DNA of 64,000 nucleotides from Clostridia bacterium (GTDB lineage: Bacteria; Bacillota; Clostridia; Christensenellales; Aristaeellaceae): contig JAFQQT010000017.1 in the NCBI GenBank assembly GCA_017410455.1, positions 124,001-188,000 of the forward strand, written 5' to 3'. The notes under the pieces were generated by a model, which was not told the DNA's origin, made no database searches, and worked only from the letters and a program-made list of their open reading frames with translations. The position numbers and the translations under genes were made by a program. Shown piece after piece: positions 43,031 to 64,000 of this stretch (the stretch's first letter is position 1; every line of letters starts with the position of its first letter).

Positions 43031-43048
43031 TTACACTGGTTAGCCCTC

Positions 43049-43072: not shown

Positions 43073-43131
43073 CTCAGTTTCCACGTCACACTGTTCACTC
43101 AACGACAAAACAAAATCAAGGAGAGAAAACC

Positions 43132-44676: not shown

Positions 44677-44689
44677 GATCTGATTTTCT

Positions 44690-44721
44690 GGTCGGGGAGT
44701 CCCTTCGGGGGCTTCCCGGCC
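44690..44721 (+). other. UUCG-capped hairpin between pilin and sortase
   Basis: A 14-bp stem (with G-U wobbles) closed by a TTCG loop: GGTCGGGGAGTCCC and GGGGCTTCCCGGCC. Strong RNA fold but followed by TGACTTGCTG rather than T residues, so it may protect the pilin mRNA 3' end or only partly stop transcription before sortase. Confidence 0.7.
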
Positions 44722-44747
44722 TGACTTGCTGAATGAAGGAGGCCGCG

Positions 44748-45668: not shown

Positions 45669-46591
45669 AGAACCGCATGACCCGCTTGCTGATGCTGACC
45701 CTGTGCCTGCTGCTGTGCGTGAGCCCTGCCGCGAACGCCTTCGAGATGGTCGACCTCACGCACCCCGTGAGCCTGACCCTCTTCGCAAATGACGAGGATA
45801 TCCCGCTGGCCGGCGTCGGCTTTGAACTGTACATGGTTGCGGAGATGAACGAGTACGCGCAGTTCGAGCTGCTGCCTGCCTACGAGGGCTTCAGCGGCGA
45901 CATCAACAGGCTTGATGATGCAGCAAGCTGGATCATGGCAGCCGAGGAGTTGGTGATGCTGGTGCAGGGCCACGACCCTGATGCGGCAGCCACCAGCGGT
46001 GAAAATGGCCTTGCGGTCTTCGAGGGGCTTGTGCCTGGCCTGTATCTGGTGACGGGCAAGCCGGTGGAGATCCTGCCGTGGACTTACACGTTCACGAATT
46101 TCCTTGTCTCTGTGCCGACGCGCGACTTCGAGGATGAATGGGTGTACGACGTCTTCTCCGACGTGAAGCTGGAGAAAGAGCCGGCCATCATCAGTATTGA
46201 TGTGGTCAAGGTCTGGGACGATCTGGGCTATGAGAAGGATCGGCCGGTTTCCATCTATGTGGACCTGTACTGCGATGGTGAGCGGATCGCTGCGGCGCAG
46301 CTGCACGATGGCAACAGCTGGAGCCACACCTTCGAGAACCTCCCTTCGGCTCATGAGTACACGGTGAAGGAACGCGACGTTCCCCGCTGGTACAAGGTGA
46401 GCTACGAGGTGATCAACGGCGTTCTGGTGGTGCGCAACGACCGCGATGAGACCATCACGCCCGTGCCGGACATCCCCTCTACGGGGCAGATCACCCTGCC
46501 GATTCCGATTCTGGCGGGCGTGGGCGTGCTGCTGGTGCTGTGTGGTTGGTTCATCAACCGGAAATGGAGCCAGGCTCATGAAGAAGAGTAA
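45665..46591 (+). CDS. Minor pilin / CnaB surface protein with IPSTG sorting motif
   Basis: A 308-residue surface protein. Signal peptide at 1-25 (MLTLCLLLCVSPAANA). It has a SpaA-like N-terminal domain (VSLTLFANDEDIPLAGVGFE, about 35-54; GLYLVTGK end) and one CnaB domain (IISIDVVKVWDDLGY to VSYEVINGVLVVRND, about 178-258). The sorting signal is IPSTGQ near 274 instead of LPXTG, then a hydrophobic helix and NRKWSQAHEEE. The altered motif may be served by a different sortase or act as the pilus base subunit. The GTG start overlaps the srtC stop (GTGA). Confidence 0.85.
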   Translation: MKNRMTRLLMLTLCLLLCVSPAANAFEMVDLTHPVSLTLFANDEDIPLAGVGFELYMVAEMNEYAQFELLPAYEGFSGDINRLDDAASWIMAAEELVMLVQGHDPDAAATSGENGLAVFEGLVPGLYLVTGKPVEILPWTYTFTNFLVSVPTRDFEDEWVYDVFSDVKLEKEPAIISIDVVKVWDDLGYEKDRPVSIYVDLYCDGERIAAAQLHDGNSWSHTFENLPSAHEYTVKERDVPRWYKVSYEVINGVLVVRNDRDETITPVPDIPSTGQITLPIPILAGVGVLLVLCGWFINRKWSQAHEEE

Positions 46592-49863: not shown

Positions 49864-50475
49864 TCAGCGCTTGCGGGCGCAGAGGAAACGGATCTCGCCC
49901 GAGGCGGGGTAGAAGCGCTCGTTCAGCTCCGCCTCGCTCATCTTCAGCTCCTCCGCTGTGACGGGCATGGCATGGATGATGCTGACCTTACTGAACAGCC
50001 CCGTGCGGCAGGTAAGCACCTCCGGCCGCTTGCCGCCGAAGGGCTGCAGCAGCATGCAGCCGGTCATGTTTACGTCCTCAGGCAGTTCGGTGGGGTCGGT
50101 GTACATGTCGATGCTGTGGCCGTAGGACAGCGGGTGATCGGCCTGGCAGGTGAAGTCCGCCAGGTCGCCCAGCAGATCGAGCAGCCACTGGTGCTTTTCG
50201 TCCTGCAGGTCCCAGTCCGCCGGGGCGAAGAGCACATACTCGTTGCGGGGCTCGCCGCCCTCGGGATCGCGGGGGAGGAGGTGCTGGCTGGCGCCGATGG
50301 TGGCCAGCACCTGCATCAGCTGTCCATCGGGCCGCCGGCACAGCATCCGGACGACCATCAGCCCCGCGCAGGGGTGCCCGGCGGAGTCCCGCTCGGCGAA
50401 TTCCGGCTCGTTCAGAGGCTGGAAGACCTCTTCATAGTGGGCCATGAGCAGGCGCTGCGCAATCCTGTTCAGCAT
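49864..50475 (-). CDS. Suppressor-of-fused (SUFU) domain protein
   Basis: A 203-residue cytoplasmic protein matching the bacterial SUFU-like family. It has a VVRMLCRRPDG...VLATIGAS strand pair, EYVLFAPADWDL (about 78-89), a WLLDLLGDLADF helix, SYGHSIDM, and a C-terminal VSIIHAMPVTAEELKM. In bacteria these are often immunity-like or of unknown function. It follows the ATP-grasp gene by three bases with only a weak ribosome site (TGGTAAG), so it likely depends on coupling. Confidence 0.72.
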   Translation of the reverse strand: MLNRIAQRLLMAHYEEVFQPLNEPEFAERDSAGHPCAGLMVVRMLCRRPDGQLMQVLATIGASQHLLPRDPEGGEPRNEYVLFAPADWDLQDEKHQWLLDLLGDLADFTCQADHPLSYGHSIDMYTDPTELPEDVNMTGCMLLQPFGGKRPEVLTCRTGLFSKVSIIHAMPVTAEELKMSEAELNERFYPASGEIRFLCARKR

Positions 50476-50478
50476 CGC

Positions 50479-51672
50479 TTACCAGGTGGCGCAGGCGTCG
50501 GCATAGAAAGCCTGCATCTGCGCCTCGGTGTCGAAGTTGGCCACATACATCTGGTTGCCCATGGCGCCGGAGAGGGCGTCGGGGATGCGGGAGACCATCT
50601 TCATGTTGGCGGCGTACTTCTGGCACAGCGCCTCGTGGGAGAGCTTGAAGTTCTTGCCGTCGCGGCGGCCGGCGAAGGCACAGAAGTAGTGCTGGCCCTG
50701 GGCCTTGAGGGTGGAGTCAAAGGCGATCATGTCCGCGTAGATCTTGTACACATCCGTGGAGTTGGCGAAGTTCATCATGTCCGGGGAGAAGCCGCCGCAG
50801 GGACGCATGTTGACTTCCAGGGCTACCACGTCGCCCTTCTTGCCCATGTGGGGGTGATCGGCGGTGAGGCGGAAGAACTCGAAGTGCACGAAGCGGTTCT
50901 TCACGCCGAAGGACTTGACCGTGGCGCGGCCGGCGGCACGGGTGTCCTCGGGCAGGTCGCGGACGATGTAGTAGATGGAGTTGTCGCCGTTGTTGACCAC
51001 GTCCATGATGGAATTGGGGGTGACGTTGCCGGTCTCGAAGATGGGGTTGCCATTGCTGTCGATGATGGCGTCGTAGCTGTTGACCTCGGCGGTGATGAAC
51101 TCCTCCATGATGTAGGAAACGCTGCGGTCCATGGTGTCGATGAAGCTGCGCAGCTCGTCGTCAGTCTTGAGCTTGTAGGTGCTGGAGGCACCCACGCCGT
51201 TGTCGGGCTTGACGATGACGGGGTAGCCCACCACGTCGATGAAGGCGCGGCAGCCCGCGAAGTCATCCACGATGTGGTAGCGGGCGGTCCTGATGCCCAC
51301 GGCCTCGTAATAGGGCTTCATCTTGGACTTGTACTTGATGCGCTCCATGTCGCTGGTCTGGAAGCCGCTGGTGATGTGGAAATCGGTGCGCAGCATGGCG
51401 TCGCGCTCCAGCCAGTACTCATTGTTGCTCTCCAGCCAGTCGATGCGGCCGTACTTGCTGATGAAGAACGCCACGGCGCGGTAGACCTCGTCGTAGTTCT
51501 CCATGGAGCTGACCTTGTAGTACTCATGCAGGTTCTCGCGCAGCTCGGGCAGGAGCTGATCATAGGGGCAGTCACCCACGCCCAGCACGCGCAGGCCGTT
51601 GTCCTTCAGGTGCTTGCAGAACTGCCAGTAGTTGGTGGGGAAGTTGGGGGAAATGAAAACGAAATTCTTCAT
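50479..51672 (-). CDS. ATP-grasp ligase
   Basis: A 397-residue ATP-grasp enzyme. The N-terminal Rossmann-like part (VFISPNFPTNYWQFCKHL) leads into the ATP-grasp core: GYPVIVKPDNGVGASST (lysine and glycine-rich loop, about 145-161), SYIMEEFI adenine contact, and DVVALEVNMRPCGGF metal-binding Glu and Asn near 283-297. Such proteins ligate a carboxylate to an amine, thiol or imino-acid. The acceptor is unknown; two alpha/beta hydrolases precede it on the same strand. Ribosome site AGAAGGATGATACAGCC. A MITE-like element separates it from the upstream hydrolase. Confidence 0.88.
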   Translation of the reverse strand: MKNFVFISPNFPTNYWQFCKHLKDNGLRVLGVGDCPYDQLLPELRENLHEYYKVSSMENYDEVYRAVAFFISKYGRIDWLESNNEYWLERDAMLRTDFHITSGFQTSDMERIKYKSKMKPYYEAVGIRTARYHIVDDFAGCRAFIDVVGYPVIVKPDNGVGASSTYKLKTDDELRSFIDTMDRSVSYIMEEFITAEVNSYDAIIDSNGNPIFETGNVTPNSIMDVVNNGDNSIYYIVRDLPEDTRAAGRATVKSFGVKNRFVHFEFFRLTADHPHMGKKGDVVALEVNMRPCGGFSPDMMNFANSTDVYKIYADMIAFDSTLKAQGQHYFCAFAGRRDGKNFKLSHEALCQKYAANMKMVSRIPDALSGAMGNQMYVANFDTEAQMQAFYADACATW

Positions 51673-51693
51673 GGCTGTATCATCCTTCTGTTG

Positions 51694-51800
51694 AAATTAT
51701 GAATTAGGAATTATGAATTGTGAATTCAGCGTGTGGAACGGAATAGATGCTGCCAGGCTGTGCAGCTCAATTCCTAATTCATAATTCATAATTCATCATT
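51694..51800. mobile_element. MITE-like AT-rich element, copy 1
   Basis: About 107 bases with inverted ends built from TAATTCATAATTC-like units, in a GC-rich genome. Its right end, reversed, matches the left end of the element at 61641 (ATGAATTAGGAATTGAG). It has no coding capacity. It sits between the hydrolase stop and the ATP-grasp start without disrupting either. Confidence 0.75.
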
Positions 51801-51811
51801 GTGCATCTGCA

Positions 51812-52558
51812 TCACAGAATGTGAGGCAGATGCACCGGCACCTGCTTGTACCACCAGTCCCAGTCGTGGTTGACGTCGTGGCCCCAGATGTCCACATAGC
51901 AGTTGATCTTCTTCTCGAAGAAGATGTCGCGCAGGCGGAAGGTCGTTTCGGGGATCTCCCAAGCGCCCTGGCCGACGACGATGACGCCCTTGTGGTTGTT
52001 GTACTGCTGGATGTAGGGGTGATCAGCGGGCATGCCAGCGAGGTAGTGCACAGGGGAGTTGGCGTAAACCAGCTCGTCCATGTAGCCGGGGAAGCCGTAC
52101 TCGCTGGAGTAGATGCCGCTGAGGGCCAGCAGGCCGTCGAAGAGGTCGGGACGGCGGAAGTAGAGGTTCGTGGCGTGGGTCGCGCCGAGGCTGCAGCCAA
52201 AGGCGATGCATCCGGGCGTGCCGGTCCAGCCATTGCGTTCGTTGGCCATGGCCTGCATGAAGGGCACGACCTCGTTGAAGATGTAGTTCATCCACTGCTC
52301 GTGGCGGCGGATGCGGAAGTAGGGCTCCCAGGTGGCGGAGTAGCTCTCCTTGTCCATGGTATCGATGGCGAAGACCATGCACTGGCCGGACTCGATCCAG
52401 GGGGCCCAGACGTCGGTCATCCTGAAGGACTCAAAGTCGAAGAAGCGACCGTCCTGGCAGGGGATGAACAGCACCGGCCGGCCGGCATGGCCGTAAACCT
52501 TGATCTCCATCTCCCGGTCCAGGGACGGGGAATGCCATTTGGTGTAGTAGGTCTGCAT
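51812..52558 (-). CDS. Alpha/beta hydrolase, esterase family
   Basis: A 248-residue serine esterase. Nucleophile in FGCSLGATHA (GxSxG) near 125; the oxyanion region PVLFIPCQDGRFFDF near 28-42; likely Asp and His in the C-terminal part (DIWGHDVNHDWDWWY holds a conserved GHDxxHDWxxW, near 220-235). No signal peptide. This resembles esterase-D/PHB-depolymerase-like cytosolic enzymes. AAGGAAG precedes the ATG. Its upstream neighbour (22 bases) is another alpha/beta hydrolase. Confidence 0.88.
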   Translation of the reverse strand: MQTYYTKWHSPSLDREMEIKVYGHAGRPVLFIPCQDGRFFDFESFRMTDVWAPWIESGQCMVFAIDTMDKESYSATWEPYFRIRRHEQWMNYIFNEVVPFMQAMANERNGWTGTPGCIAFGCSLGATHATNLYFRRPDLFDGLLALSGIYSSEYGFPGYMDELVYANSPVHYLAGMPADHPYIQQYNNHKGVIVVGQGAWEIPETTFRLRDIFFEKKINCYVDIWGHDVNHDWDWWYKQVPVHLPHIL

Positions 52559-52579
52559 GTTGCACTTCCTTGTGTGTCG

Positions 52580-53344
52580 TTATTTGCGGGTATACATCAG
52601 CGTGCCCATCAGGAAGGGGAGCTGCTCCTCCCAGCAGGCTTCGCAGTGATCGCCGTTGGGTACGATGCGGGCGGTGGTCCACACGCCCCTTTGCATCAGG
52701 TGTGCGCATACGGAGGCGAAGAGGTCGCGCATGCCCTCGTGGTTGGCCATCTCCCGGGAGCCGTAGTCCAGGTAGATGACGGTGTCCGGCGCGAGATCCG
52801 CCTGGTCAATCAGGGCGTGGATCTGTTCCGGCGCAACCCACACGCTGGGGCTCAGGCAGCAGGCGCGGCTGTAGACGCGGTTGTGCCGGAGGATGGCGTA
52901 CAGGCTCATCAGCCCGCCCATGGAGGAGCCGGCGATGAAGGTGTGCTCCCGCTCCGGACGGGTGGGGTACTTCTCGTCGATGAGCGCCTTGAGCGGCCCG
53001 GCGAACCAGTTCATGGTCGTTTTGCCCCGGCCGCGCAGCACCATGTCGCGGAATGTGAAGTCGTAGGGCGAGTACTCCCGGAGGCGGCCGCCCTTCGGGC
53101 TGTGGTTGCAGTCCACCGCCACGATGATCATGGGCAGGTGCGTTTCGTCCATGAAGTCCTTCAGGCCCCAGGACTTGCCGTAGGTGGCGTCCTCATCGAA
53201 GAAGACATTGTGGCCGTCAAACATGTACAGCACGGGGTAGCGGGCGTCGGGGTCGTTCTCCGCCTCGTCGGGTACGTACACATACACGGTGCGGGCCCTG
53301 CGACTGAGCGAGCGGGGCAGCGGAACCTGAAACTTCTCAATCAT
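52580..53344 (-). CDS. Alpha/beta hydrolase, enterochelin esterase-like
   Basis: A 254-residue esterase of the Fes/IroE/esterase-D type. VYVYVPDEAENDP...YPVLYMFDGHNVFFD near 20-50, nucleophile in IAGSSMGGLMSLY near 140, Asp in YLDYGSRE, and His in NGDHCEACW near the C-terminus. No signal peptide, so a cytoplasmic role. It is the first gene of the operon running to the terminator at 49831. A good promoter lies 49 bases upstream. Substrate is likely an ester of a small molecule or siderophore; no siderophore genes are seen here. Confidence 0.88.
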   Translation of the reverse strand: MIEKFQVPLPRSLSRRARTVYVYVPDEAENDPDARYPVLYMFDGHNVFFDEDATYGKSWGLKDFMDETHLPMIIVAVDCNHSPKGGRLREYSPYDFTFRDMVLRGRGKTTMNWFAGPLKALIDEKYPTRPEREHTFIAGSSMGGLMSLYAILRHNRVYSRACCLSPSVWVAPEQIHALIDQADLAPDTVIYLDYGSREMANHEGMRDLFASVCAHLMQRGVWTTARIVPNGDHCEACWEEQLPFLMGTLMYTRK

Positions 53345-53392
53345 ACGCGCATTCTTCTCCTGCGATATGCTGGCGGAAATCCGCCGGAGAAC

Positions 53393-53421
53393 ATTCTACC
53401 ACATTCCCCTGCCTGTGGCAA
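53393..53421 (-). promoter_or_regulatory. Promoter for the hydrolase/ATP-grasp operon
   Basis: On the minus strand TTGCCA (53421-53416), 17-bp spacer, TAGAAT (53398-53393), 49 bases before the start. Both hexamers match five of six. Confidence 0.8.
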
Positions 53422-53478
53422 CCGGCAAATGCCGAATTCTCCTGCATTTTCCGGTTCTTATTGGGTTCGGGGCGAAGC

Positions 53479-53507
53479 TTTACATCCCCCGGCTGATGTG
53501 GTATACT
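53479..53507 (+). promoter_or_regulatory. Promoter for the ATPase/HEPN operon
   Basis: TTTACA at 53479-53484, 17-bp spacer, TATACT at 53502-53507, 102 bases before the ATG. Both hexamers match five of six. It stands back to back with the hydrolase promoter. Confidence 0.8.
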
Positions 53508-53608
53508 GGAAAAAAAGGATGACTCCGGCAAGAAAAGCACGAAGGCTGGCGCGTTGGTACGAGAGATGACGGAATGCGTCGGCGCATGCATGAGAGGAGT
53601 TGAAGCGC

Positions 53609-56600
53609 ATGACAGCGATTCATCAGATGATGGAGCGTTTCAGACAACAGAGCAGGGAGGCGGAAACCCTTCTGGCGCAGCTGATGGACAGCGTGCGGGG
53701 GGAGCGTCCCCCGGCGGCGGATCTGCCCGGGCGCGTGCAACAGGCGATGGAGGCGCTGCGGTCGCAGTATGACGCGCTGCGCACCTGGGCGGCGCGTCGC
53801 CTTGACGAGGATGAGATGCCTGCCGATGACGCGCCCGTTGGCGATTATGCGCAGGCGGTTTCCGGCAGCCGTCGCACGGCGCTGGCCCGCTCCCTGGATG
53901 TGTGCCTGCGGCTGAGCACGGATCTGGAGCGCCATCAGCAGCCGCTCCGCGAAGTGCAGGAGCGTGTGTTTGCGCTGCAGCAGCGCATCGAGAATGGCCG
54001 GGAGTATTCCCCGGAGGAGCTGCAGCAATACCAGGCCTTTGCCGAAGCGGTTTGCATGGGTGACGCCTTCCAGCGGGAGGATTCCCGGGCGCTGGGGCTG
54101 ATGGAGAAGCTGGAAACGGCGACGCTGCCCGTGTCGATGGTCGTGGGGTTGATGCTCCACGCTTTTCGTGTGGAAGAGAACCCGACCTTTATCGGTGAAG
54201 CGCTTGCCTTTGACGATGATGAGCAGCCGGTTCTGCCCCTGAAGGCTGCGGAAGAGCCGCAGGATGCGGAGCAGCATGCAATCCCCAAGCCTGCCCCGGA
54301 ACCTGTGCCCGCCCCGGCACCCGTGCCTGATCCGGCGCCTGTGCCTGATCCGGAACCTGAGCCTGATCCGGAGCCTGTGCCCGACCCGGAACCGGTGCGC
54401 CTTTGGCCGGAGTCTGCCAGCTATTACGAGCCGGGCAGCTGCAGCGTGAAGGTCAACCATATGGAGTCTGGAAAGAAGCTGACCGGCACGGACGTATTCA
54501 TGCAGCACGCCAACGCCCACGCGACGGAAATGGACGGGCTGCTGGCGGTTGCTGGTGCGCTGCTCTTTGACCCTGTTGACGTCAGCGACGCGCAGGCGCG
54601 GGCTGCATTGACGGATGTGAACTGGCCGCCCCGCCGCCATGGCTATGTGGATGAGGTCGTCATCTCCATGGGGGATATGTCCTACAGCTACCTTTGCCTG
54701 AGCGAGGCGACCCGCTATCTGCTGCGGAATTCCAGCATCCGGAACTTCTTCAGAAACAGGCGCAATGACTTCAGCCACCGGCCGATCAACCCGGAAAGAT
54801 ACATCTCCTCCGCCATGATGGAGGAGGACGAAACTTTCGCCGTCCGCATGATGTATACGATCCTCTACGCCAAGGCCCGCGGCGAACGCTTCAAGCCGGT
54901 GGATAACGCGGTGCTGTGGAATGGTGAGGACTGGAAGCCTGAAAAGAAGCAAAAGGAAGCGGTGCTCATGGCGCTCTTCACCCCGGGCAGGGAGGAAGAG
55001 GAGCTGTGCTGGATGCGCGACATGGCGCAGCGCGCAGCGGATAACAGCGTGAAGCTGACCATCCTGACCGTATCGGCCGAGGAGAAGGAGTTTGTCCGCA
55101 GCCTGCTTGAACTGCCTGAGGCGCATGCGGCGTGGGTGAACCTCGTGGCTGTGGATGAAGAAGCTGCGGAAGAGCCGGCCGGAGGGAATGACGAAGGTCA
55201 GGATGCCGTGAAGGACGATATGCCCGTACCTGCACCGGCGACAGATCAGGATCCTGTGCCAGTGCCCGATCCTGTGCCAGTGCCCGATCCTGTGCCGGTG
55301 CCTGACCCTGTGCCCGTGCCGGAACCGGCACCCGATCCTGTACCGGTGCTGGTCGACGAGGACAAGCCTGACGACAGGCAGACCGCAGAGACCCTGGCGC
55401 CCATGCGGCCGATCAACCGCAGGATGAACACCAGCGAAGAGCTCTGCGCGCATTACAGGACCTGCGCCTACGAGGCCTATGCCAACGGCCGTGGCGATGT
55501 GGGCAGCGTGATGCTGCGCTCCCTGGGCGTGACGCATGAAGGGGTGGAGAAGATCTGGGCGCGCTGGGCCTGTGCGGCGGGCGATCCGGCTTTCCGGCGG
55601 CAGCGGCGGCCGGGCACGGTGCTGTCCCTCTATGGCGAAGCGCCGGACCGGGCAACGAGCGCGCTGGCGCTGGCGGCCTGCCTGCGCATGTACTGCTCTC
55701 AGGATGCGCAGGAGGAATACTGGCAGCGCTGCTGGCAGCGGGCGAGGGAGTATCTGCGCCGCCTGCCCGCGCCCTGCCCGACGCTGGAAGGCTGCTTGCA
55801 GCGGCTGGATGCGTTGCTGGCGGAGAGCCGTGCCGGCCTGACGCCCGCCGTGTTTGCGGCCCTGGGCAATGCGCCTGCCGGCAGCGAACAGCTGCAGCTG
55901 GTGCAGGAGCAGGCGAAACGGATCATTCAGGAAAGGTTCGAAAACATCTACGCATCCGACCGGCAGATCATGTGCCTGTACGCCGCGATGCTGGGCGAGG
56001 GTTCCGCGCTGCATACGGCGCTGGACGCCGTGGCGGCGGGGGATCAGGAGGCTGCCGATTCCATCGTTGACATCCTGCAGGGGCTCCATCCCCAGCTGCT
56101 GACGGAAGGCAGAGCGGTGGAGGAAGCGGTGATGACCGAGTGGGCGTGCCTGAGCAGCGCGCCGCTCAATGCCCGCCACCGCAGCAACCTCGTGAGCCGC
56201 ATGTGCTGCTGTACCGACGTCATCGGCCGCTGGCTGAGCCTGGTGGAAGCCGGGCGGCGGGAGATGACCGAGGCACAGCTGAATGCGGCGCAGGGGCTGC
56301 GCACGGTCATGCCTGAGGCGGTCGAAGAGATCCGCGCAGCGGCGGCCCTGGTGACCACGGCTGAGGAGCGCGGCGCGATGCAGGTGCTCCTGACCACGGC
56401 GGAGGAGATCGCTCAGGGTCTTGCCCGGGCGCAGATGCCGCCGGCAAAGACGGACTACTACCTGGCCCTTGCTGCGGGCATGCCGGAACAGCCCCAGCGC
56501 CGCCAGGCCGCGCCTGCACAGCAGGCCGACTGGGAGGACGCTGCTGCGCTGCTGGCAGCCGTCGGCAGCGTCGTGGTGATCGAGGCGGATGGCTTGCCCT

Positions 56601-59092
56601 GCATCTTCAGTGACCAGGAAATGCTGGATCCCTACGAGCAGTGCCGCCGCCTGGAACCGCTGGCGAATCAGCCCCGTCCCGATCTGGTGTGGGCGGCGAA
56701 CTGCTTCCTGCGCGATGCGGCGTATGACTTCAACGAAAGCATCTGCGGCGGCAACTACGGCAACGGTCTGCGTCTGGTGGAGGCGGCTGAGGACGCCGGC
56801 GAAACGCTGGAGTCCTACGATGCGGAGGAGATCCTCATCTTCAGCAAGTCGGGCCTGAGCAAGCTGAAGCTCGAGAAGGAGAAGTTCCGCGGACAGATGG
56901 AGATGGCCGCGGCCCGCGGCTGGTTTGAGCACATGCCGGAGGCCCAGGAGGTCATCGAAAGCGTGGCGCTCAATAAGTGCGAACGCTGCGAGGCGGCCCG
57001 CGACTATGCCATGGGCATGCTCTGCCTGAAGGAAGCGATGCAGTGGGCGCGGCAGCGGGCGCATGAATACTGGAGCGGCATGCTGGAGGAGCGCCTGCGC
57101 CAGGCGATGGAGAAGTATGGCATCTTCGAGGACACGCCGGCCACGCGCCGCATCCGCCGCCTGATTGAGCAGGCCAGCTTCACCGCGGCCGAGGACGCCA
57201 TCAAGGCCGCCAGCGCCCATGGCTTTGCCGACCTGCCCGGTGGCGAGCCCGCTGAAACCACCTGCTTTGCGGAATTCATGCGCACCTACACCATGCTCTA
57301 CGACCAGGTGAAGAATGTCACGGATATGCCGTCCCTCATCGAGTATGTGGCGGTGGGTCAGGCGGATCTGGACTCGTGCAGCGCGCTTCTGGCGGCGTGG
57401 CCGGCACAGCAGGGGCACATGCTGCCCAATGCGAGGAATCTGCTGGCGGCGCTGAACCTGAATGTGGCTTCCTGCACCCCCTATCCGGGGATGAACAACG
57501 GTGCCCATGCCTGCATTGACTTCGGGCACACCATGTCCACCCAGGGCTTTGAGCAGCACCCCTTTGCGGCCTTCGGCACGGGCATGTTTGCCAGCGATAA
57601 CGGCCTCGACCTGGTGTATGTGCCCCCGTGCACGAATGCGCTGAGCTACCTGGACCGGATGTGCGATGCGCTCAACCGCACCCACGCCCGGGCGGTGCTC
57701 TTTGTGATCAATGCGGTGCTGAGCAAGGCGGAGCGCAGGCAGATCGCCACGCGCATCTGGCACAACCCGGACATCAGCCTGCCATTCATCTTCATCGACC
57801 GCGTGCTGGCCTTCTACCTGGCGCAGAAGCCCTGCGACCAGCGCTGGAATGCCCTGCTGCAGTGTGCGCTGCCCTTCGCGATGGTCAAGCCCTACGTCAT
57901 CAGCAGCACGGCGATCGTGCCGCCGGAGATGTTCGTGGGCCGCGTGGAGGAGCTGCGCCGGATCGAGAATTTCGTCAACGACAAGGGCGCGAACCTGGTC
58001 TATGGCGGCCGCCAGCTGGGCAAGACCGCCCTGCTGTACCGCGTGGTGCAGAAGCACCACGACCCCGCGCACGAGAAGTTCGCCGTGGTGGCCACGGTGC
58101 GCAAGTGCGATGTGAAGAAGGCCGTGCCGGCCATCGTCCGCGAGCTGCGCGTGCGGGGCTTCCCCGGCGCGGAAACCCTGCCCCGGGACGTGTCCTGGAG
58201 CGACATGTGCAACTGGATCAGCGATATGCTGGAGCGCTACCCCTCCATGATGCTGCGCCTGATGATCGACGAAGCAGACGTGCTGCTGACCTCCGCCGGC
58301 GAGGACAACTACAGCGCCATCGACGAATTGCGCAACGTGCAGCGCACCTTCCCGGATCGCTTCAAGTTCGTGCTGGCGGGCGTGCATGACGTGCTGCGCT
58401 TCTCCGAGCGGGCGCTGGAGGCCAACAGCCCCCTGGTGCATCTGGGCAGCGTGGCCGTGGGTCCCTTGCCCTACAGCGACGCCGAGCAGCTGCTGCGCCG
58501 CCCTCTGAGCTACCTGGGCTTCGAGTTCGATGGCTCCGAGCGGCAGCAGGCGCTGATCTCCACCATCCTCTACAAGACCAACTACTACCCGGGCCTGATC
58601 CACCACTACTGCGACAGCCTGCTGTCCACCATAGCGGAGGGGCAGGCGGTGGTGCTGCCGGAGAAGCCGCCATACGAGCTGGACGAGAATTTGATCGCCC
58701 GCCGCCTGGTGGACAGCAACTTCCAGCAGGCGACGAAGGATCGCTTCCTGATGACCATCTGCGTGGAAGAGGGCGTGCAGTATTACTACATCCTCAGCTG
58801 CATGCTGGCCATGTGCTGCTACGAGAACCCGGAGGCCAAGCTGGGCGTGACGCAGAACGAGTTCGTGCGCGTCGCCAGGGAGTATGGCATCGGCGCCATC
58901 GAGCAGCTGAGCGCAAAGAGCCTGCGCGCGCTGCTGGAGGAGCTGTGCCAGCTGAACATCTTCCGCAGGTCCGATGGCGACACGGTGCTCTACCGCTTCG
59001 CCCGGCCGGACTTCCAGAACATGCTGGGCACGGACGCGGATGTGCTGAACCAGATGGAAACCTTTGCATTGATGGAGGTGAATGACGTTTGA
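53609..59092 (+). CDS. Large protein with C-terminal AAA/Orc1-like ATPase (1827 aa)
   Basis: A 1827-residue soluble protein. Order: helical/coiled-coil segment (about 1-175); Pro-rich linker with PVPDPEP repeats (about 225-275); unrecognised domain (about 280-510) with an RRNDFSH motif at 384-390; second Pro-rich linker of PVPVPD units (about 545-585); long helical region (about 600-1270); an alpha/beta stretch before the ATPase (VLFVINAVLSKAERRQIATR, FIFIDRVLAFYLA); AAA domain starting MFVGRVEELRRIENF, Walker A GGRQLGKT (1466-1473) and Walker B LRLMIDEADVLL (about 1549-1560), then winged-helix-like C-terminus. The pattern fits conflict-system ATPases. ATG 53609 with AGGAG nine bases upstream; a TTG three codons earlier is weaker. 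The partner gene overlaps its stop. Confidence 0.75.
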   Translation: MTAIHQMMERFRQQSREAETLLAQLMDSVRGERPPAADLPGRVQQAMEALRSQYDALRTWAARRLDEDEMPADDAPVGDYAQAVSGSRRTALARSLDVCLRLSTDLERHQQPLREVQERVFALQQRIENGREYSPEELQQYQAFAEAVCMGDAFQREDSRALGLMEKLETATLPVSMVVGLMLHAFRVEENPTFIGEALAFDDDEQPVLPLKAAEEPQDAEQHAIPKPAPEPVPAPAPVPDPAPVPDPEPEPDPEPVPDPEPVRLWPESASYYEPGSCSVKVNHMESGKKLTGTDVFMQHANAHATEMDGLLAVAGALLFDPVDVSDAQARAALTDVNWPPRRHGYVDEVVISMGDMSYSYLCLSEATRYLLRNSSIRNFFRNRRNDFSHRPINPERYISSAMMEEDETFAVRMMYTILYAKARGERFKPVDNAVLWNGEDWKPEKKQKEAVLMALFTPGREEEELCWMRDMAQRAADNSVKLTILTVSAEEKEFVRSLLELPEAHAAWVNLVAVDEEAAEEPAGGNDEGQDAVKDDMPVPAPATDQDPVPVPDPVPVPDPVPVPDPVPVPEPAPDPVPVLVDEDKPDDRQTAETLAPMRPINRRMNTSEELCAHYRTCAYEAYANGRGDVGSVMLRSLGVTHEGVEKIWARWACAAGDPAFRRQRRPGTVLSLYGEAPDRATSALALAACLRMYCSQDAQEEYWQRCWQRAREYLRRLPAPCPTLEGCLQRLDALLAESRAGLTPAVFAALGNAPAGSEQLQLVQEQAKRIIQERFENIYASDRQIMCLYAAMLGEGSALHTALDAVAAGDQEAADSIVDILQGLHPQLLTEGRAVEEAVMTEWACLSSAPLNARHRSNLVSRMCCCTDVIGRWLSLVEAGRREMTEAQLNAAQGLRTVMPEAVEEIRAAAALVTTAEERGAMQVLLTTAEEIAQGLARAQMPPAKTDYYLALAAGMPEQPQRRQAAPAQQADWEDAAALLAAVGSVVVIEADGLPCIFSDQEMLDPYEQCRRLEPLANQPRPDLVWAANCFLRDAAYDFNESICGGNYGNGLRLVEAAEDAGETLESYDAEEILIFSKSGLSKLKLEKEKFRGQMEMAAARGWFEHMPEAQEVIESVALNKCERCEAARDYAMGMLCLKEAMQWARQRAHEYWSGMLEERLRQAMEKYGIFEDTPATRRIRRLIEQASFTAAEDAIKAASAHGFADLPGGEPAETTCFAEFMRTYTMLYDQVKNVTDMPSLIEYVAVGQADLDSCSALLAAWPAQQGHMLPNARNLLAALNLNVASCTPYPGMNNGAHACIDFGHTMSTQGFEQHPFAAFGTGMFASDNGLDLVYVPPCTNALSYLDRMCDALNRTHARAVLFVINAVLSKAERRQIATRIWHNPDISLPFIFIDRVLAFYLAQKPCDQRWNALLQCALPFAMVKPYVISSTAIVPPEMFVGRVEELRRIENFVNDKGANLVYGGRQLGKTALLYRVVQKHHDPAHEKFAVVATVRKCDVKKAVPAIVRELRVRGFPGAETLPRDVSWSDMCNWISDMLERYPSMMLRLMIDEADVLLTSAGEDNYSAIDELRNVQRTFPDRFKFVLAGVHDVLRFSERALEANSPLVHLGSVAVGPLPYSDAEQLLRRPLSYLGFEFDGSERQQALISTILYKTNYYPGLIHHYCDSLLSTIAEGQAVVLPEKPPYELDENLIARRLVDSNFQQATKDRFLMTICVEEGVQYYYILSCMLAMCCYENPEAKLGVTQNEFVRVAREYGIGAIEQLSAKSLRALLEELCQLNIFRRSDGDTVLYRFARPDFQNMLGTDADVLNQMETFALMEVNDV

Positions 59093-60105
59093 GCGCGGCA
59101 GAACTCTGGTGGTGCCAGGTACCTGCGGGCGTGAGCCTGTACAACCAGCTGGCCTGTGACCTGCAGCAGGGAAAGAGCATCGTGCTGGACGCGGGCCGGA
59201 TGCCCTGGCCGGACACGCTGCGCGGTTACCTGCGCGATGTGGTGACACAGATCAACAATGCGATGCCCTTTGAGATCATCAACGCCTCCGATTGCCCGCC
59301 GGGCATGGAGCCGGATGCGTTCCTCTTCCGCTGCATCGGCGAGGAGGATCACTACGGCACGCAGCTCCTGCGCATCAAGCGTCTGCGCCGCAAGCCTGCC
59401 TGCCTGTGGGTGGATGGCATTCCGCAGAAGCAGTATGCCCAATGGATCGACATGGCGGTGGAACTGACGCGGGAACCCTCGCAGATGATGCTCATCCTGG
59501 ATATCCCGGAGCAGGTGAGTGTGCCGGAATGTGAACGCCTGGCGCCCGAGGGCGTGTGGCACAGCCGCTTTGATGTGTATTACTTCTCCCTCATGCGGCT
59601 GAGCACGCTGCAGGAGGACGAGCGCATGGTGGAATACGCAGCGACGCTGTGCACGGAGCTGTCCGGCCTGGATCCGATCCTGTGCGATCAGCTGTGTCAG
59701 GTGCCGGAGCGGCTGATGCAGAATCCGCTGAAGGTGGCAGAGCAGCTGGGCTGCCAGGTCAACATCAACCAGGCGGTGCTCAGGGCGCAGATGCGCGCCT
59801 TCATGCCGCTGGTGGAGCTGTGCCGCATCACGGTCAATGAACTGCTCCGCCATCAGCTGGAGAACGCGCTGCCATTCTCTCCGGACAAGGGCGAAACGGT
59901 CAGAAAGTCCGATGTGGAACGGGTGGAGCTGACCCACATCATCCAGATGGCGAATCGCGGGCGGATCAACCTGCCCAGCGATCTGTACAATCTGCTGCAC
60001 AACCTGCGCGAGATCCGCAACCACCTGGCGCACCTGACGATGCTGAGCAACGTGGAGATCGGGACGCTGCTGGGTGGCATGGATTCGCTGGCGGAGTGGC
60101 AGTAA
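59089..60105 (+). CDS. HEPN-motif protein, partner of the large ATPase
   Basis: A 338-residue protein. The first 230 residues look like an alpha/beta fold (GKSIVLDAGRMPW, ACLWVDGIPQK, SQMMLILDIPEQV, comparable to a P-loop-like core without a clear Walker motif; QQGKSIVL holds only GKS). The C-terminal 110 residues are helical and end LHNLREIRNHLAHLTML: RNHLAH at 310-315 is an exact RNxxxH HEPN motif, the RNase active site of many toxins. The TTG start overlaps the ATPase stop (TTGA), with GGAGG ten bases upstream, so the two are translationally coupled. Most likely a complex; RNase activity is inferred only. Confidence 0.65.
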   Translation: MSAAELWWCQVPAGVSLYNQLACDLQQGKSIVLDAGRMPWPDTLRGYLRDVVTQINNAMPFEIINASDCPPGMEPDAFLFRCIGEEDHYGTQLLRIKRLRRKPACLWVDGIPQKQYAQWIDMAVELTREPSQMMLILDIPEQVSVPECERLAPEGVWHSRFDVYYFSLMRLSTLQEDERMVEYAATLCTELSGLDPILCDQLCQVPERLMQNPLKVAEQLGCQVNINQAVLRAQMRAFMPLVELCRITVNELLRHQLENALPFSPDKGETVRKSDVERVELTHIIQMANRGRINLPSDLYNLLHNLREIRNHLAHLTMLSNVEIGTLLGGMDSLAEWQ

Positions 60106-60142
60106 ACGGCTTCCCTGCGGAAGTCCCGGACAACACAAACAA

Positions 60143-60176
60143 GGGGACGCACCGGCCTGATGGGTCGTGCGTCCCC
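60143..60176 (+). terminator. Terminator of the ATPase/HEPN operon
   Basis: Perfect 10-bp stem GGGGACGCAC/GTGCGTCCCC with a 14-base loop, then CTCTATATGG; no long T tract. Confidence 0.7.
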
Positions 60177-60203
60177 CTCTATATGGTTATGGATGGATAA
60201 GAA

Positions 60204-60227
60204 AAAGCCTCCTGATGACTCAGGAAG
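60204..60227 (-). terminator. Terminator of tRNA-Leu
   Basis: On the minus strand TCCTGA/TCAGGA with a four-base loop, then GGCTTTTTCTT, directly after the tRNA gene. Confidence 0.85.
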
Positions 60228-60232
60228 CTCAG

Positions 60233-60314
60233 TGCGGTCGACGGGACTTGAACCCGTACCCATTGCTGGACACGCCCCTCAAACGTGCGCGTATACCGAT
60301 TCCGCCACGACCGC
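60233..60314 (-). tRNA. tRNA-Leu (GAG)
   Basis: Acceptor GCGGTCG pairs with CGACCGC, discriminator A, and no encoded CCA. The anticodon stem CACGT/GCGTG closes the loop TTGAGGG with anticodon GAG. D-arm GGCGGAATCGGT, an extra arm of class II type and T-arm CGGGTTCAAGTCCCG are all present. Length is 82 bases. Confidence 0.97.
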
Positions 60315-60334
60315 ATGCCGTAACAGCAAAATCT

Positions 60335-60362
60335 ATTATAGCACACTTTGCGGATTTGTCAA
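60335..60362 (-). promoter_or_regulatory. Promoter of tRNA-Leu
   Basis: On the minus strand TTGACA (60362-60357), 16-bp spacer, TATAAT (60340-60335), 21 bases before the tRNA. Both hexamers are perfect. Confidence 0.93.
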
Positions 60363-60411
60363 GCACTCGCAGGAAATTATTTTCCGTAGAGAAATCCGGC
60401 GCCGAATCCTT

Positions 60412-60440
60412 TTGACATTTCAGCGCCGATGCATTATCAT
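60412..60440 (+). promoter_or_regulatory. Promoter for the rRNA methyltransferase gene
   Basis: TTGACA at 60412-60417, 17-bp spacer, TATCAT at 60435-60440, 81 bases before the start. Confidence 0.85.
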
Positions 60441-60520
60441 AGTAACGGGGAACGTGCAGAAGGGGAGGCACATGGCCGCCCTGCCCGTTCCCCCATACAG
60501 GACATGAAAGAGGAAGCTCT

Positions 60521-61642
60521 ATGAATATCAACAACCTGACCCTGCTGGCGACGGCTGCCTTCGGCCTGGAGGGCGTGGTGGCAGCCGAACTCAGGCGCCT
60601 GGGCATGAAGGACGTGCGCGGCGAGATCGGCGGCGCGCGCTTCACCGGCAGCATCACCGATGCATTCCTGTGCAACCTGCGCCTGCGCTGCGCCGACCGC
60701 GTGCTGATCGTGCTGGACGAGCGCGAGTGCCGCACCTTCGAGGAGCTGTTCCAGTTCGTCCGGGCGCAGGCCTGGGAGCAGCTGCTGCCCGCCGACGCGC
60801 GTATCAACGTCTCCGGCAAGTGCGCCCGCAGCCAGCTGATGTCCATCCGCGACTGCCAGGCCATCACCAAGAAGGCCATCATCGAGCGCCTGAAGGAGAA
60901 GACCCGCCGCAGCGTCTTTCCGGAGACGGGCGAGGCGTACCCGATCGAAATCGGCCTGCATGCCGACGTCGCCCGCCTGACGCTGGACACCAGCGGTGAA
61001 GCCCTCAACCGCCGCGGCTACCGCACCTGGAACGGCGAAGCGCCCCTGCGCGAGACCCTGGCCGCGACGCTGGTGGAGCTGTCCACCTGGCGGCCCGGCA
61101 TGCGGCTGCACGACCCCTGCTGCGGCACGGGTACGCTGCTGATCGAGGCCGCCTTCCGCCAGAGCCACCGCGCCCCCGGCCTCACCCGGCACTTCGCCAT
61201 GGAGCGCTTCGGCTTCTTCCCGGCGGAGGAATGCGAAGACATCCGCCGCACCTGCCAGGAGGACTTTGAGCCCCATCGCATCAGCGGCATTTCCGGCAGC
61301 GACATCGACCCGAATGCCCTCGACCTGGCCGCACGCCATGTGAAGCAGGCTGGCCTGGCCGGGAAGATCGAATTGACCAACGTCCCCCTGCAGCAGCTGC
61401 AGCTGACCGGCGAGCCCGGCGTGTTCCTGTGCAACCCGCCCTACGGCGAGCGCCTGTCCGACCGCAACACCTGCCAGAAGCTCTACCGGGAGATGCACCG
61501 TCTCCTGGACCGCCACCCCGGCTGGAGCCTGTGCGCCATCTCCTCCGACCCCATGTTCGAGCGCGCCTTCGGCAAGAAGGCCGACAAGAAGCGCCGCCTC
61601 TACAACGGGCGGCTGGAATGCGAATTCCTCACCTTTAAATAA
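60521..61642 (+). CDS. THUMP-domain class I RNA methyltransferase (RlmL/YpsC-like)
   Basis: A 373-residue 23S rRNA guanine-N2 methyltransferase of the COG0116 family. It has an N-terminal THUMP RNA-binding domain (about 5-160; FGLEGVVAAELRRLGM at its start), then the Rossmann methyltransferase with SAM motif HDPCCGTGTLLIEAA near 197 and the catalytic motif FLCNPPYGERLSD near 304. The acidic SDIDPNAL is motif II. It is the usual length for the Firmicute YpsC type, which modifies G2445-like positions. AGAGGAAGCTCT precedes ATG 60521. Confidence 0.93.
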   Translation: MNINNLTLLATAAFGLEGVVAAELRRLGMKDVRGEIGGARFTGSITDAFLCNLRLRCADRVLIVLDERECRTFEELFQFVRAQAWEQLLPADARINVSGKCARSQLMSIRDCQAITKKAIIERLKEKTRRSVFPETGEAYPIEIGLHADVARLTLDTSGEALNRRGYRTWNGEAPLRETLAATLVELSTWRPGMRLHDPCCGTGTLLIEAAFRQSHRAPGLTRHFAMERFGFFPAEECEDIRRTCQEDFEPHRISGISGSDIDPNALDLAARHVKQAGLAGKIELTNVPLQQLQLTGEPGVFLCNPPYGERLSDRNTCQKLYREMHRLLDRHPGWSLCAISSDPMFERAFGKKADKKRRLYNGRLECEFLTFK

Positions 61643-61757
61643 ATTATGAATTATGAATTAGGAATTGAGATACTGGACTCTGATGAGCGCATTACCGCAC
61701 CAGTACACACAAACCAAATTCATAATTCATAATTCCTGATTCATAATTTCCAATTTC
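61641..61757. mobile_element. MITE-like AT-rich element, copy 2
   Basis: About 117 bases. Left end AAATTATGAATTATGAATT, right end its near inverse. The middle (GATACTGGACTCTGATGAGC) differs from copy 1, so only the ends are shared. It overlaps the last bases of the methyltransferase stop and lies before the aldo/keto reductase ribosome site. Confidence 0.75.
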
Positions 61758-61787
61758 CCAATCCCCCACGCATAAGGAGGTACAACC

Positions 61788-62804
61788 ATGTCCACCTACG
61801 CCCCCGCGTCCGACCGTTACGACGCCATGCAGTATGCCCGCTGCGGCAAGTCCGGGCTGAAGCTCCCCCGCGTTTCCCTGGGCCTGTGGAACAACTTCGG
61901 GTCCGTTGACCGCCACGAGAACGCCCGGCAGATGCTGCTCACGGCCTTTGATCTGGGGATTACCCACTTCGACCTGGCCAACAACTACGGCCCCCTGCCC
62001 GGCAGCGCGGAGGAGACCCTCGGCCGCGTGCTGGACAGCGACCTGCGCGCCCACCGCGACGAAATGATCCTGACCACCAAGGCCGGCTACACCATGTGGC
62101 CCGGCCCCTACGGCGACTGGGGCAGCCGCAAGTACCTCATCAGCAGCCTCGACCAGAGCCTGAAGCGCATGAAGGTGGACTATGTGGATATCTACTACCA
62201 CCACCGTCCCGACCCCAACACGCCCCTGGAGGAAACCATGGGCGCGCTGGCGGACATCGTGCGGCAGGGCAAGGCGCTCTACGTGGGCGTGTCGAACTAC
62301 TCCGCTGAAATGACCGCGAAGGCCGCCGACATCCTCAATTCCATGGGCGTGCCGCTGACCATCCATCAGCCCCGCTACAACATGCTGGACCGCTGGGTGG
62401 AGGAGGGGAAGCCCTCCCTGTGCGATGTGCTGCTGGAGAGGGGCATCGGTGCGGCGGTGTTCTCCCCGCTGGCGCAGGGCCTGCTGACCGACCGGTACCT
62501 GAGCGGCATCCCGGCGGATTCCCGCGCCGCCAGCCCCTGCGTGTTTCTGAATGAATCCGGCGTGACCGAGGACGTGCTGTCGAAGGTTCGCCGCCTGAAC
62601 GCCATCGCCAAGGCCCGCGGCGAGACCATGGCCCAGCTGGCCCTGGCCTGGGTGCTGGAGAACCCTGCCATCACCAGCGTCATCACCGGCGCGAGCCGCC
62701 CGGAGCAGATCCGGCAGAACGTCGAAACCGTACAGAAGCACGTTCCCCTCTCCGACGAGGAGAAGGACGCCATCCGCAGGATCCTCACCGAGGTGAAGGC
62801 GTAA
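61788..62804 (+). CDS. Aldo/keto reductase, YghZ-like
   Basis: A 338-residue (beta/alpha)8 NADPH-dependent reductase of the L-glyceraldehyde-3-phosphate reductase type. HFDLANNYGPLPGSAEETLG near 60-79 holds catalytic Asp and Tyr; TTKAGYTMWPGPYGDWGS holds catalytic Lys; the YHHRPDPNTPLEETM has catalytic His. The C-terminal VITGASRPEQIRQNV binds NADPH phosphate. It reduces small aldehydes in the cytoplasm. AAGGAGGTACAACC precedes the ATG. The next gene starts 35 bases on and may be co-transcribed. Confidence 0.93.
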   Translation: MSTYAPASDRYDAMQYARCGKSGLKLPRVSLGLWNNFGSVDRHENARQMLLTAFDLGITHFDLANNYGPLPGSAEETLGRVLDSDLRAHRDEMILTTKAGYTMWPGPYGDWGSRKYLISSLDQSLKRMKVDYVDIYYHHRPDPNTPLEETMGALADIVRQGKALYVGVSNYSAEMTAKAADILNSMGVPLTIHQPRYNMLDRWVEEGKPSLCDVLLERGIGAAVFSPLAQGLLTDRYLSGIPADSRAASPCVFLNESGVTEDVLSKVRRLNAIAKARGETMAQLALAWVLENPAITSVITGASRPEQIRQNVETVQKHVPLSDEEKDAIRRILTEVKA

Positions 62805-62839
62805 GCCCCCGAGACCGCCGATACAGGAGGTATGCAGCC

Positions 62840-63328
62840 ATGCTCCCGATTCTTCTTGCCGCCGAGTCCATCGTGATGTGCTTCGCGCTGCTGCTGGTCT
62901 GCGTCGTGGGCATTGCCAACGGCCCGGTGGGGCTGGTGATGCTCTACGAGGAGGACGTGCAGGCCCGCGTGGTGGAGCTGGGGCTCACCACAAAGGCGCG
63001 TATCCGCCGCAGCTTCATCATCGGCTGCGTCGCGCTGTTCCTGCCCATGCTGATCCTGCCGCCGCTGATGGTCTACACGCTCAACGGCGTGACCGGCTTC
63101 TGGGATGCCTTCTGGCAGATGACCGTGATCCTGCTGGTTTCCGGCCTCTTTGACCGCTTCTTCATCGACTGGTACTGGGTCGGCCGGACAAAGGCCTGGC
63201 TCATTCCCGGCACGGAGGATCTGATGCCTTACATCCCCGGGCGTGTTCAGCTGCGCAAGTGGGCATGCACGCTGATCCTCAACCCGCTCATCGCCGCCGC
63301 CATCGCCGGTGTGGGCATGCTGTTCTGA
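62840..63328 (+). CDS. Four-helix membrane protein, unknown
   Basis: A 162-residue integral membrane protein with hydrophobic helices at about 3-25, 55-80, 92-112 and 143-162. A charged loop GLTTKARIRRSF lies between the first two, and RFFIDWYWVGRTKAW follows the third. I do not recognise the family with certainty; similar small clostridial membrane proteins carry the FIDWYWV motif, without a known role. AGGAGG with good spacing precedes the ATG. It is followed by a bidirectional terminator. Confidence 0.7.
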   Translation: MLPILLAAESIVMCFALLLVCVVGIANGPVGLVMLYEEDVQARVVELGLTTKARIRRSFIIGCVALFLPMLILPPLMVYTLNGVTGFWDAFWQMTVILLVSGLFDRFFIDWYWVGRTKAWLIPGTEDLMPYIPGRVQLRKWACTLILNPLIAAAIAGVGMLF

Positions 63329-63341
63329 ACCACATAAACAA

Positions 63342-63372
63342 GGGAGCCGTCCAACGTGGACAGCTCCCTTTT
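63342..63372. terminator. Bidirectional terminator
   Basis: GGGAGC-GTCCA/TGGAC-AGCTCCC with one mismatch and an ACG loop, followed by TTTT on the plus strand, between convergent genes. Confidence 0.88.
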
Positions 63373-63381
63373 CGTATGCCT

Positions 63382-64000
63382 TTATTCTGCCGACCAGAAC
63401 ATCGCGTCCGTCAGCGGGAAGGGCGTGTCGTCCTGCACCTTCTGCAGGATGCGCGCCCTGTCCTCGCCGTCAGCGACCATGGGGCAGTAGTCGTTCACGC
63501 CTTCTGATGCGCGGGAGGAGGTCAGGATGGGGATCAGCTCCACCGTCACGCCCACGTACTCGCCATCGCGGAAGCGCAGGTGCAGCTGGGCCAGCATGGC
63601 GTCGTAGCCCTGCATGTCGATGGTGCCGCCGAACATGAGGTTGCCCAGGCTGTAGATGACGGGCATGCTCCCCACGGAATCCACGCCCTGCACGATGTGC
63701 GGGTGCCCGCCGACGAGGATGTCCACGCCGGCTGCAGCTGCCGCAGAGGCGATCTGCTCCTGCAGCGCGTTGCGGTTCGGGTCGTACTCCGTGCCCCAGT
63801 GGCAGGTGTAGATGATCACGTCGCAGCCCGCCTGCCGGAGCGCGTTCACGTCCTTGTAGAGGATGGAGGGGTCTTGCTTGTAGATCGTTTCGCGGATACC
63901 GCCGAAGCCGATTTTCAGGCCGTCGACCTCCCAGACGTACAGGTACTCGTAGCCGCTGAAGGGAATGCCCGCTTCGGTCAGCGCCGCGCGGGTGGCTTCC
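63382..64000 (-). CDS. CapA-family (PGA_cap) protein, C-terminal part (truncated by window)
   Basis: The frame is open to the window's end, so 206 C-terminal residues are visible. CDVIIYTCHWGTEY holds the metal-ligand-like His of the metallophosphatase-like CapA fold; ILVGGHPHIVQGVD (GGHPHxxQ) and MPVIYSLGNLMFGG are diagnostic for the poly-gamma-glutamate capsule synthesis CapA/PgsA family. Stand-alone members are mostly exported and of unknown function. A GTG internal to the frame at 63849 should not be taken as the start. Confidence 0.88.
   Translation of the reverse strand, partial: EATRAALTEAGIPFSGYEYLYVWEVDGLKIGFGGIRETIYKQDPSILYKDVNALRQAGCDVIIYTCHWGTEYDPNRNALQEQIASAAAAAGVDILVGGHPHIVQGVDSVGSMPVIYSLGNLMFGGTIDMQGYDAMLAQLHLRFRDGEYVGVTVELIPILTSSRASEGVNDYCPMVADGEDRARILQKVQDDTPFPLTDAMFWSAE

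Follow-up and report, generated by a model that had tools for sequence, protein, structure and literature searches.

Do a giant ATPase gene and the small gene that overlaps its end form a bacterial defence module, and how might their two products work together? The question is raised by a 64,000-nucleotide stretch of DNA from a Clostridia bacterium of the family Aristaeellaceae (GenBank assembly GCA_017410455.1, contig JAFQQT010000017.1, positions 124,001 to 188,000), which in its whole length is referred to here as the window. Gene 1 (53609-59092) and gene 2 (59089-60105) both lie on its plus strand, as do their domains and motifs and the promoter and terminator candidates given below. A sequence-only reading of the window had described two overlapping genes sharing the letters TTGA, the first encoding a very long protein with a C-terminal AAA/Orc1-like ATPase and the second a protein ending in RNHLAH, and had placed such a combination of ATPase sensor and HEPN RNase within the logic of conflict and defence systems. 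The analysis reported here bears out this description of the genes and their motifs, and a predicted HEPN fold, together with known or candidate defence genes near or fused to part of the related loci, supports the proposed logic, from which we infer the function.

The two genes form a conserved pair in which the ATPase motifs and the letters RNxxxH are retained, part of the loci lie in an island context, and a relative of gene 1 is fused to pPIWI-RE. We consider it quite likely that the two genes make up a so far uncharacterised conflict (defence) module, with an AAA sensor that would control a HEPN RNase through a dead-AAA adaptor. Such a defence module would probably be of the abortive type.

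Conservation of the gene pair

Both open reading frames (ORFs) are present. Gene 1 starts with ATG and encodes 1827 amino acids (aa), gene 2 starts with TTG and encodes 338 aa, and the two overlap by 4 bases (TTGA), with GGAGGT immediately 5' of the TTG start. Profiles built without the window sequences match both products, with expectation values (E) of 7.6e-163 for gene 1 and 1.5e-21 for gene 2. Across 28 gene-1 loci, a gene-2 homologue recognised by profile or alignment adjoins gene 1 in 24, a candidate does so in one (a paralogue, see below), and three have none. Ten of the 24 homologues were used to build the gene-2 profile; the remaining 14 all reach E 1e-8 or lower, the weakest being that of locus L041. 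When loci were reached via gene 1 (n = 21, window included), 17 had an adjoining gene-2 homologue, the paralogue counting as a candidate by layout and motif only. With the gene-2 profile (A2) as the entry point, 9 of 398 genomes of the phylum matched, which leaves seven new loci after subtraction of the window's own genome and of G288, and in all seven gene 1 sits immediately upstream and overlaps the gene-2 homologue (E 3e-72 to 4e-94).

Among 59 relatives, including 17 congeners, gene 2 (P0002) has no match besides its own genome, and P0001 gave only poly-proline matches, in 2 of the other 119 genomes. The real relatives were reached via the paralogue, then via genome G138, and then by wider searches. 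The paralogue, a distant relative of gene 1 in the same genome (L008, 5631-11792), is cut off by the end of its contig; should it go on in contig C42, a point that the assembly leaves undecided, an overlapping ORF with RNxxxH comes next, unmatched by the gene-2 profile. Four contig ends (the ends of L008 and L015 and the starts of L016 and L017) share an identical stretch of 138 bases where the paralogue breaks off, so part of this gene seems to be repeated elsewhere in the genome. The same genome also holds a solo ORF of 605 aa (L045, 13775-15592, G000:C87) that matches the gene-1 N-terminal profile only (E 2e-17); neither the AAA profile nor the gene-2 profile matches this stretch, and the ORF may represent a free-standing sensor-like module.

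A scan of GTDB contigs starting from G138 yielded seven more pairs, whose best segments share 44-48% identity with the G138 protein, in four Clostridia-type records, a Spirochaetaceae metagenome-assembled genome, Fretibacterium and a record named Fusobacterium naviforme. Whole-genome searches, in which 4 of 291 genomes of the class matched (own genome included), added G351, G288 and a doubtful G168 (L026), the last of which was dropped because it shows a weak AAA match only and no gene 2. Furthermore, a tblastn search of plasmids with gene 1 of L033 matched 27 records. Eight of these were examined as loci: a gene-2 homologue directly follows gene 1 in five (Thiodictyon, Microvirga, Azospirillum, Salinibacter and Methylocystis) and in none of the remaining three (Brasilonema, Streptomyces and Euzebya). 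One pair (L043, 6596-13128) lies on an IMG/VR contig, further viral-contig searches gave none, and the INPHARED phages hold no match for gene 1 of L033. By reading, minus-strand ORFs near the L043 pair resemble tail genes from a prophage or a gene transfer agent. Gene 1 thus occurs in records of Bacillota, Spirochaetota, Synergistota, Pseudomonadota, Actinomycetota, Cyanobacteriota and Rhodothermota, and gene 2 was undetected in two actinomycete records and the cyanobacterial record that carry gene 1.

The ATPase and its HEPN-like partner

Gene 1 ends in an AAA+ domain of the Orc1/Cdc6/STAND type, with a core at residues ~1442-1640 (57932-58528, core end approximate). The motifs MFVGRVEEL, GGRQLGKT and LMIDEAD are all located in gene 1, and AAA_22 scores 27.0 bits over residues 1458-1595, at its cut-off of 27; the same model exceeds its cut-off in L033, L035, L036, L038 and L041 and falls short of it in L032, in L042 and in the paralogue (P0003). 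Walker A (GGRQLGKT, 58004-58027; pattern GGRxxGK[TS]) and Walker B (LMIDEAD, 58259-58279) are kept in all 28 gene-1 proteins, and a profile search of solved-structure sequences gives a weak AAA match (6mfv, E 0.0018). Ahead of the AAA+ domain, reading of the translation indicates long helical-looking stretches and two Pro-rich linkers, at residues ~219-284 (54263-54460) and ~531-604 (55199-55420). The first linker draws low-complexity matches to unrelated Pfam and NCBIfam models and the second a TonB polyproline match below cut-off; TonB, SslE and similar matches of gene 1 were rejected as low-complexity matches from these linkers, and NCBIfam gave only low-complexity matches for the pair as a whole. 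Two further candidates were set aside. RNDFSH, a further RNxxxH at residue 385 of gene 1, is taken as chance: a pattern search detected it at that place in the window protein but in none of the remaining 27. RNVLRH-type matches, which some relatives have midway along gene 1, are missing from the window, L029 and L034.

Gene 2 is predicted to combine two domains. Its front half (residues 1-195, 59089-59673) is predicted to adopt an Orc1/Cdc6-like alpha/beta AAA fold without a P-loop, which would fit an inactive STAND/ORC domain as in BrxB. A P-loop is present in this N-terminal domain in none of the 23 gene-2 sequences that could be checked, and the sole P-loop pattern match in the set belongs to an extra C-terminal AAA_33 domain in Microvirga. 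The C-terminal helical part (residues 226-337, 59764-60099) is predicted to be a HEPN ribonuclease domain, and carries RNHLAH at residues 310-315 (60016-60033; R310, N311 and H315). RNxxxH occurs in 24 of 25 gene-2 sequences, with RRGMAH in L039 as the exception. In an alignment of 22 HEPN domains, which are 17-31% identical to that of the window, just four columns are invariant, namely R, N, A and H in RNxxAH; this alignment leaves out L039, L016 (RNWIHH, poor alignment) and L025. In L025 (G288), gene 2 is broken by an in-frame TAA (12568-12570) just before the HEPN part. Because these four columns alone are invariant and the motif recurs in nearly all sequences, RNxxxH is taken as the putative active site. 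In 20,000 shuffles of gene 2, RNxxxH arose anywhere in 2.2% and RNxxAH in 0.2%. Since window-free profiles match both genes, the four columns are invariant and the motif is rare in shuffles, the gene pair and its motif are not regarded as chance.

Whether the C-terminal part has a HEPN fold, which comprises four to five helices, was the check that the sequence-only reading had asked for. Folded alone, residues 222-338 reach a predicted local distance difference test (pLDDT) score of 88.7, and the three best structural matches are HEPN-type (2hsb, 7bxo_F and 3c8g, Z 5.9-5.4). The Z values are modest, however, with unrelated helical proteins close behind, and the window domain scores 15.4 bits with HEPN_Swt1 in Pfam, below the cut-off of 27.5, which is a threshold of detection and does not define the superfamily. 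HEPN_Swt1 is matched by 8 of the 22 domains (best E 0.00029), and a few match other HEPN families, in every case weakly; single members also match nine families without HEPN in their names. Among the sequences of solved structures, profile searches found nothing convincing for gene 2 (best E 0.095) or for its HEPN part (0.39). The domain could instead be a non-catalytic, MtlR-like HEPN helical domain and the pair a regulator or scaffold, as MtlR/YggD structures are among the best matches and the HEPN matches in Pfam are weak. However, the invariance of R, N, A and H as the only such columns in 22 divergent domains, and the near-constancy of RNxxxH, argue for catalysis, and we consider a non-catalytic role very unlikely. 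A HEPN RNase is the preferred reading of the C-terminal part.

Defence genes, pPIWI-RE and the insertion site

The homologues do not lie consistently in housekeeping operons, an arrangement that the sequence-only reading had named as speaking against its proposal. Instead, a known or candidate defence gene is nearby or fused in 11 of the 28 loci, a raw count without a control set, and 10 of these 11 belong to the 25 loci with gene 2 or a candidate for it. A defence call meant a PADLOC match of E 1e-20 or better, within the fetched stretch or fused, and the neighbour scan comprised 39 protein slots, picked by eye and partly repeated. In L034, Shango SngC, preceded by SngB, ends 155 bp before gene 1, and in L061 a 14-copy CRISPR-like array precedes Cas56g, whose end is 445 bp from gene 1. 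Further neighbours are DruA1 (L031), DruH3 with a GajB-like helicase (L041), DruE-like and HEC-05-like genes (L064), PDC-S57 with a type IIG enzyme (L024), PDC-S37/Hhe (L038), a type I S subunit (L029), and a type I methyltransferase with its S subunit, accompanied by an MmeI-like enzyme on the other side (L030). A PLD-SNF2 helicase was found in L037, which has no gene 2, and PprPIWI is fused to gene 1 in L036/L044. Weaker matches include HerA in L059 (7.9e-18) and Orf5 in L033 (5e-10). The other 17 loci, window included, show no defence match at the E 1e-20 level, many of their neighbours being unscanned. For the pair itself, PADLOC-DB 2.0 gave no match in the scanned members L032, L033, gene 2 of L024 and L061, and in the window weak matches of the AAA part only (PDC-S27, E 0.0057; PDC-S01, E 0.052).

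The fusion is seen in Microvirga VF16, where the gene order is a restriction endonuclease (REase) gene (pPIWI_RE_REase and Y), a DinG-like gene (pPIWI_RE_Z, 24.5 bits, cut-off 25), a gene for a 3394-aa fusion, and a HEPN-AAA_33 gene. The 3394-aa protein contains pPIWI_RE_X, MID and RNaseH, followed by the AAA part of gene 1; in L036 the pPIWI_RE MID and RNaseH domains are above cut-off, and pPIWI-RE is near full-length at the front of the protein. The Azospirillum locus L039 resembles this fusion by annotation and size, and its giant protein probably also carries pPIWI-RE. The Microvirga HEPN protein (L036, 11814-13430) bears its extra C-terminal, kinase-like AAA_33 domain with E 4e-14, and a HEPN domain beside a kinase-type AAA_33 domain may fit RNA-end chemistry. 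A similar P-loop stretch is visible in the Azospirillum HEPN protein. The window pair has no pPIWI_RE match in Pfam.

Such neighbours bear on a rival explanation, in which the pair is a restriction-like machine that targets nucleic acids: the gene-1 protein would assemble on invading DNA as an Orc-like ring, and that of gene 2 would cut the transcripts of the invader without killing the cell. Domains of the Orc/Cdc6-type AAA class act on DNA, the relative fused to pPIWI-RE adjoins REase and DinG-like genes, and restriction-modification genes lie near some relatives. On the other hand, Pfam and NCBIfam scans found no DNase or methyltransferase domain in the pair, and sequence cannot tell the selectivity of cutting; we regard this explanation as possible but rather doubtful. 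The distribution of gene 1 allows yet another one, a toxin-antitoxin-like addiction module of mobile elements, in which gene 2 would be the toxin and gene 1 an ATP-dependent controller, kept for the stability of a plasmid or other element. This would be consistent with gene-1 relatives in the 27 plasmid records, with the patchy distribution and with the toxin-antitoxin HEPN chain 7bxo_F among the top structural neighbours. It fits poorly, however, with an effector gene that comes second in order, with a very large partner, with the absence of a nucleotidyltransferase match in Pfam and NCBIfam, unlike in MntA-HepT, and with replicons of which 8 of 28 come from plasmid records, the others being chromosomal or unspecified. 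An addiction module therefore appears unlikely, and an abortive defence module is the reading that we prefer.

In the window, the surroundings of the pair suggest horizontal gain. In the congener G009, the stretches with the esterase gene and the tRNA-Leu gene end 233 bp apart, compared with ~6.9 kb in the window; the interval measures ~0.9 kb in G016, and in G002 it is occupied by 1.9 kb of other sequence. The comparison covered stretches of 4 of 17 congeners; the site is not contained in the G010 stretch. The GC content at third codon positions (GC3) is 0.835 and 0.847 for the pair versus 0.90-0.93 in five close neighbouring genes, a contrast weakened by the large ORF at 27032-43030, whose GC3 of 0.806 is lower than that of the pair. 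The suggestion of horizontal gain follows from the nearly empty congener site and from a GC3 below that of the five neighbours. The tRNA-Leu(gag) gene (60232-60314, minus strand, ARAGORN) borders the insertion site, and the segment from it to the RlmL-like gene (60232-61642) has the opposite orientation in the window to that in G009, G016 and G002.

The sequence-only reading had also assigned the pair its own promoter and terminator. The candidate sigma-70-like promoter (53479-53507), TTTACA-17-TATACT with TG before the second hexamer, is a consensus match only (10/12), found by a scan that gave 4 promoter-type sites in the region versus a mean of 1.4 in shuffles. A 10-bp perfect GC hairpin, read from the sequence 3' of gene 2 (60143-60176), is present as a possible terminator, but it has no good T run and is absent from the list of the terminator scan. 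By reading of translations, minus-strand enzyme-like genes, including an esterase-like ORF (52580-53344), lie upstream of the pair, and an RlmL-like methyltransferase and an aldo/keto-reductase-like ORF follow the tRNA-Leu gene downstream. Among the ORFs at 50000-64000, whose translations were read without a profile scan, no defence gene was recognised, and PglZ, BrxX and other BREX core genes were not found. Elsewhere in the window, the region 27032-46591 is probably a giant adhesin or pilus locus: by reading, it contains a surface-protein-like ORF of 5332 aa that terminates in LPETGG, after which come a second, smaller LPETGG protein (43006-44676) and sortase-like and pilin-type ORFs.

Proposed mechanism and known systems

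In an abortive defence module of this kind, the long, fast-evolving N-terminal part of gene 1 would sense a cue of the invader. The product of gene 2 may dock on the AAA assembly via its catalytically dead AAA domain, for which BrxC-BrxB-PglZ of BREX offers a precedent, and in the resting state its HEPN domain would be kept apart or inactive. Upon triggering, ATP binding or hydrolysis would rearrange the assembly and allow the HEPN domains to pair, and the R-N-H site, in line with established HEPN biochemistry, would then cut RNA of the cell or the phage and thereby arrest growth. The N-terminal sensor may be exchangeable, as pPIWI-RE fronts the same giant protein in Microvirga and probably in Azospirillum. 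Tentatively, the pair could even belong to a general bacterial immune effector arm, in which a giant Orc-like AAA sensor and a dead-AAA/HEPN RNase are combined with grafted recognition modules, pPIWI-RE among them, so that its recognition, guided or R-loop-based, would lead to RNA cleavage by HEPN and shutdown of the cell, with an AAA_33 end-healing kinase in some lineages and with the window pair as the PIWI-free form. If the defence reading is right, it would add a widespread two-gene module that PADLOC-DB 2.0 missed in the members scanned, and would give pPIWI-RE, the effector of which is uncertain, a concrete partner that can be tested. No publication describing the pair was recognised in the open-licence PMC literature, supplements excluded.

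Several known systems share parts of this design. In HepT-MntA (HEPN/MNT), a small HEPN RNase is under the control of a neighbouring gene, and among the fold matches of gene 2 the toxin-antitoxin chain 7bxo_F ranks second; the partner of the pair is, in contrast, a giant AAA ATPase, and no nucleotidyltransferase was matched. Defence systems of the STAND/Avs type likewise combine a large ATPase, a variable sensor region and a nucleic-acid effector, whereas in the pair the AAA core is C-terminal, behind a long N-terminal region, and the effector acts in trans on a dead AAA domain. According to excerpts of two reports, DUF499/Hma/BREX-related type 1 systems place an ORC-like ATPase and a HEPN domain of the Swt1/Abi2 family in defence loci, the HEPN being fused to the N-terminus of the ATPase and accompanied by a methyltransferase and a helicase (PMC12839542; PMC3710099). 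The HEPN of the pair is a separate, overlapping gene; DUF499 has no match in the pair or the scanned relatives, and no methyltransferase-helicase set was seen in the translations read beside the pair.

The pPIWI-RE system is described, in the parts of the report consulted, as a triad or as standalone genes, and the term AAA does not occur in its main text (Burroughs et al., 2013, PMC3702460). The Microvirga loci resemble this three-gene island in their REase and DinG-like genes and in the fusion of pPIWI-RE to gene 1, with the gene-2 homologue following; the window copy differs in having no pPIWI-RE match and no REase or DinG gene seen beside the pair. BREX is close in another respect. BrxB is described in an excerpt as an inactive STAND/ORC domain that associates with PglZ (PMC12839542), and an entry of the PDB bears the title of a BrxC-BrxB-PglZ complex. 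BREX (BrxC with BrxB/BrxF) and the pair thus both join an active ORC-like ATPase to a dead ORC-like domain, but no PglZ, BrxX, BrxA or BrxL was seen beside the pair, whose dead AAA domain carries HEPN. As the active/dead ORC design is BREX-like and the payload here is HEPN, a common way for AAA machines to restrain a toxic effector is suggested. The individual parts are of known kinds; what appears to be new is a trans-acting dead-AAA/HEPN protein together with a giant Orc-like ATPase, and the fusion of that ATPase to pPIWI-RE.

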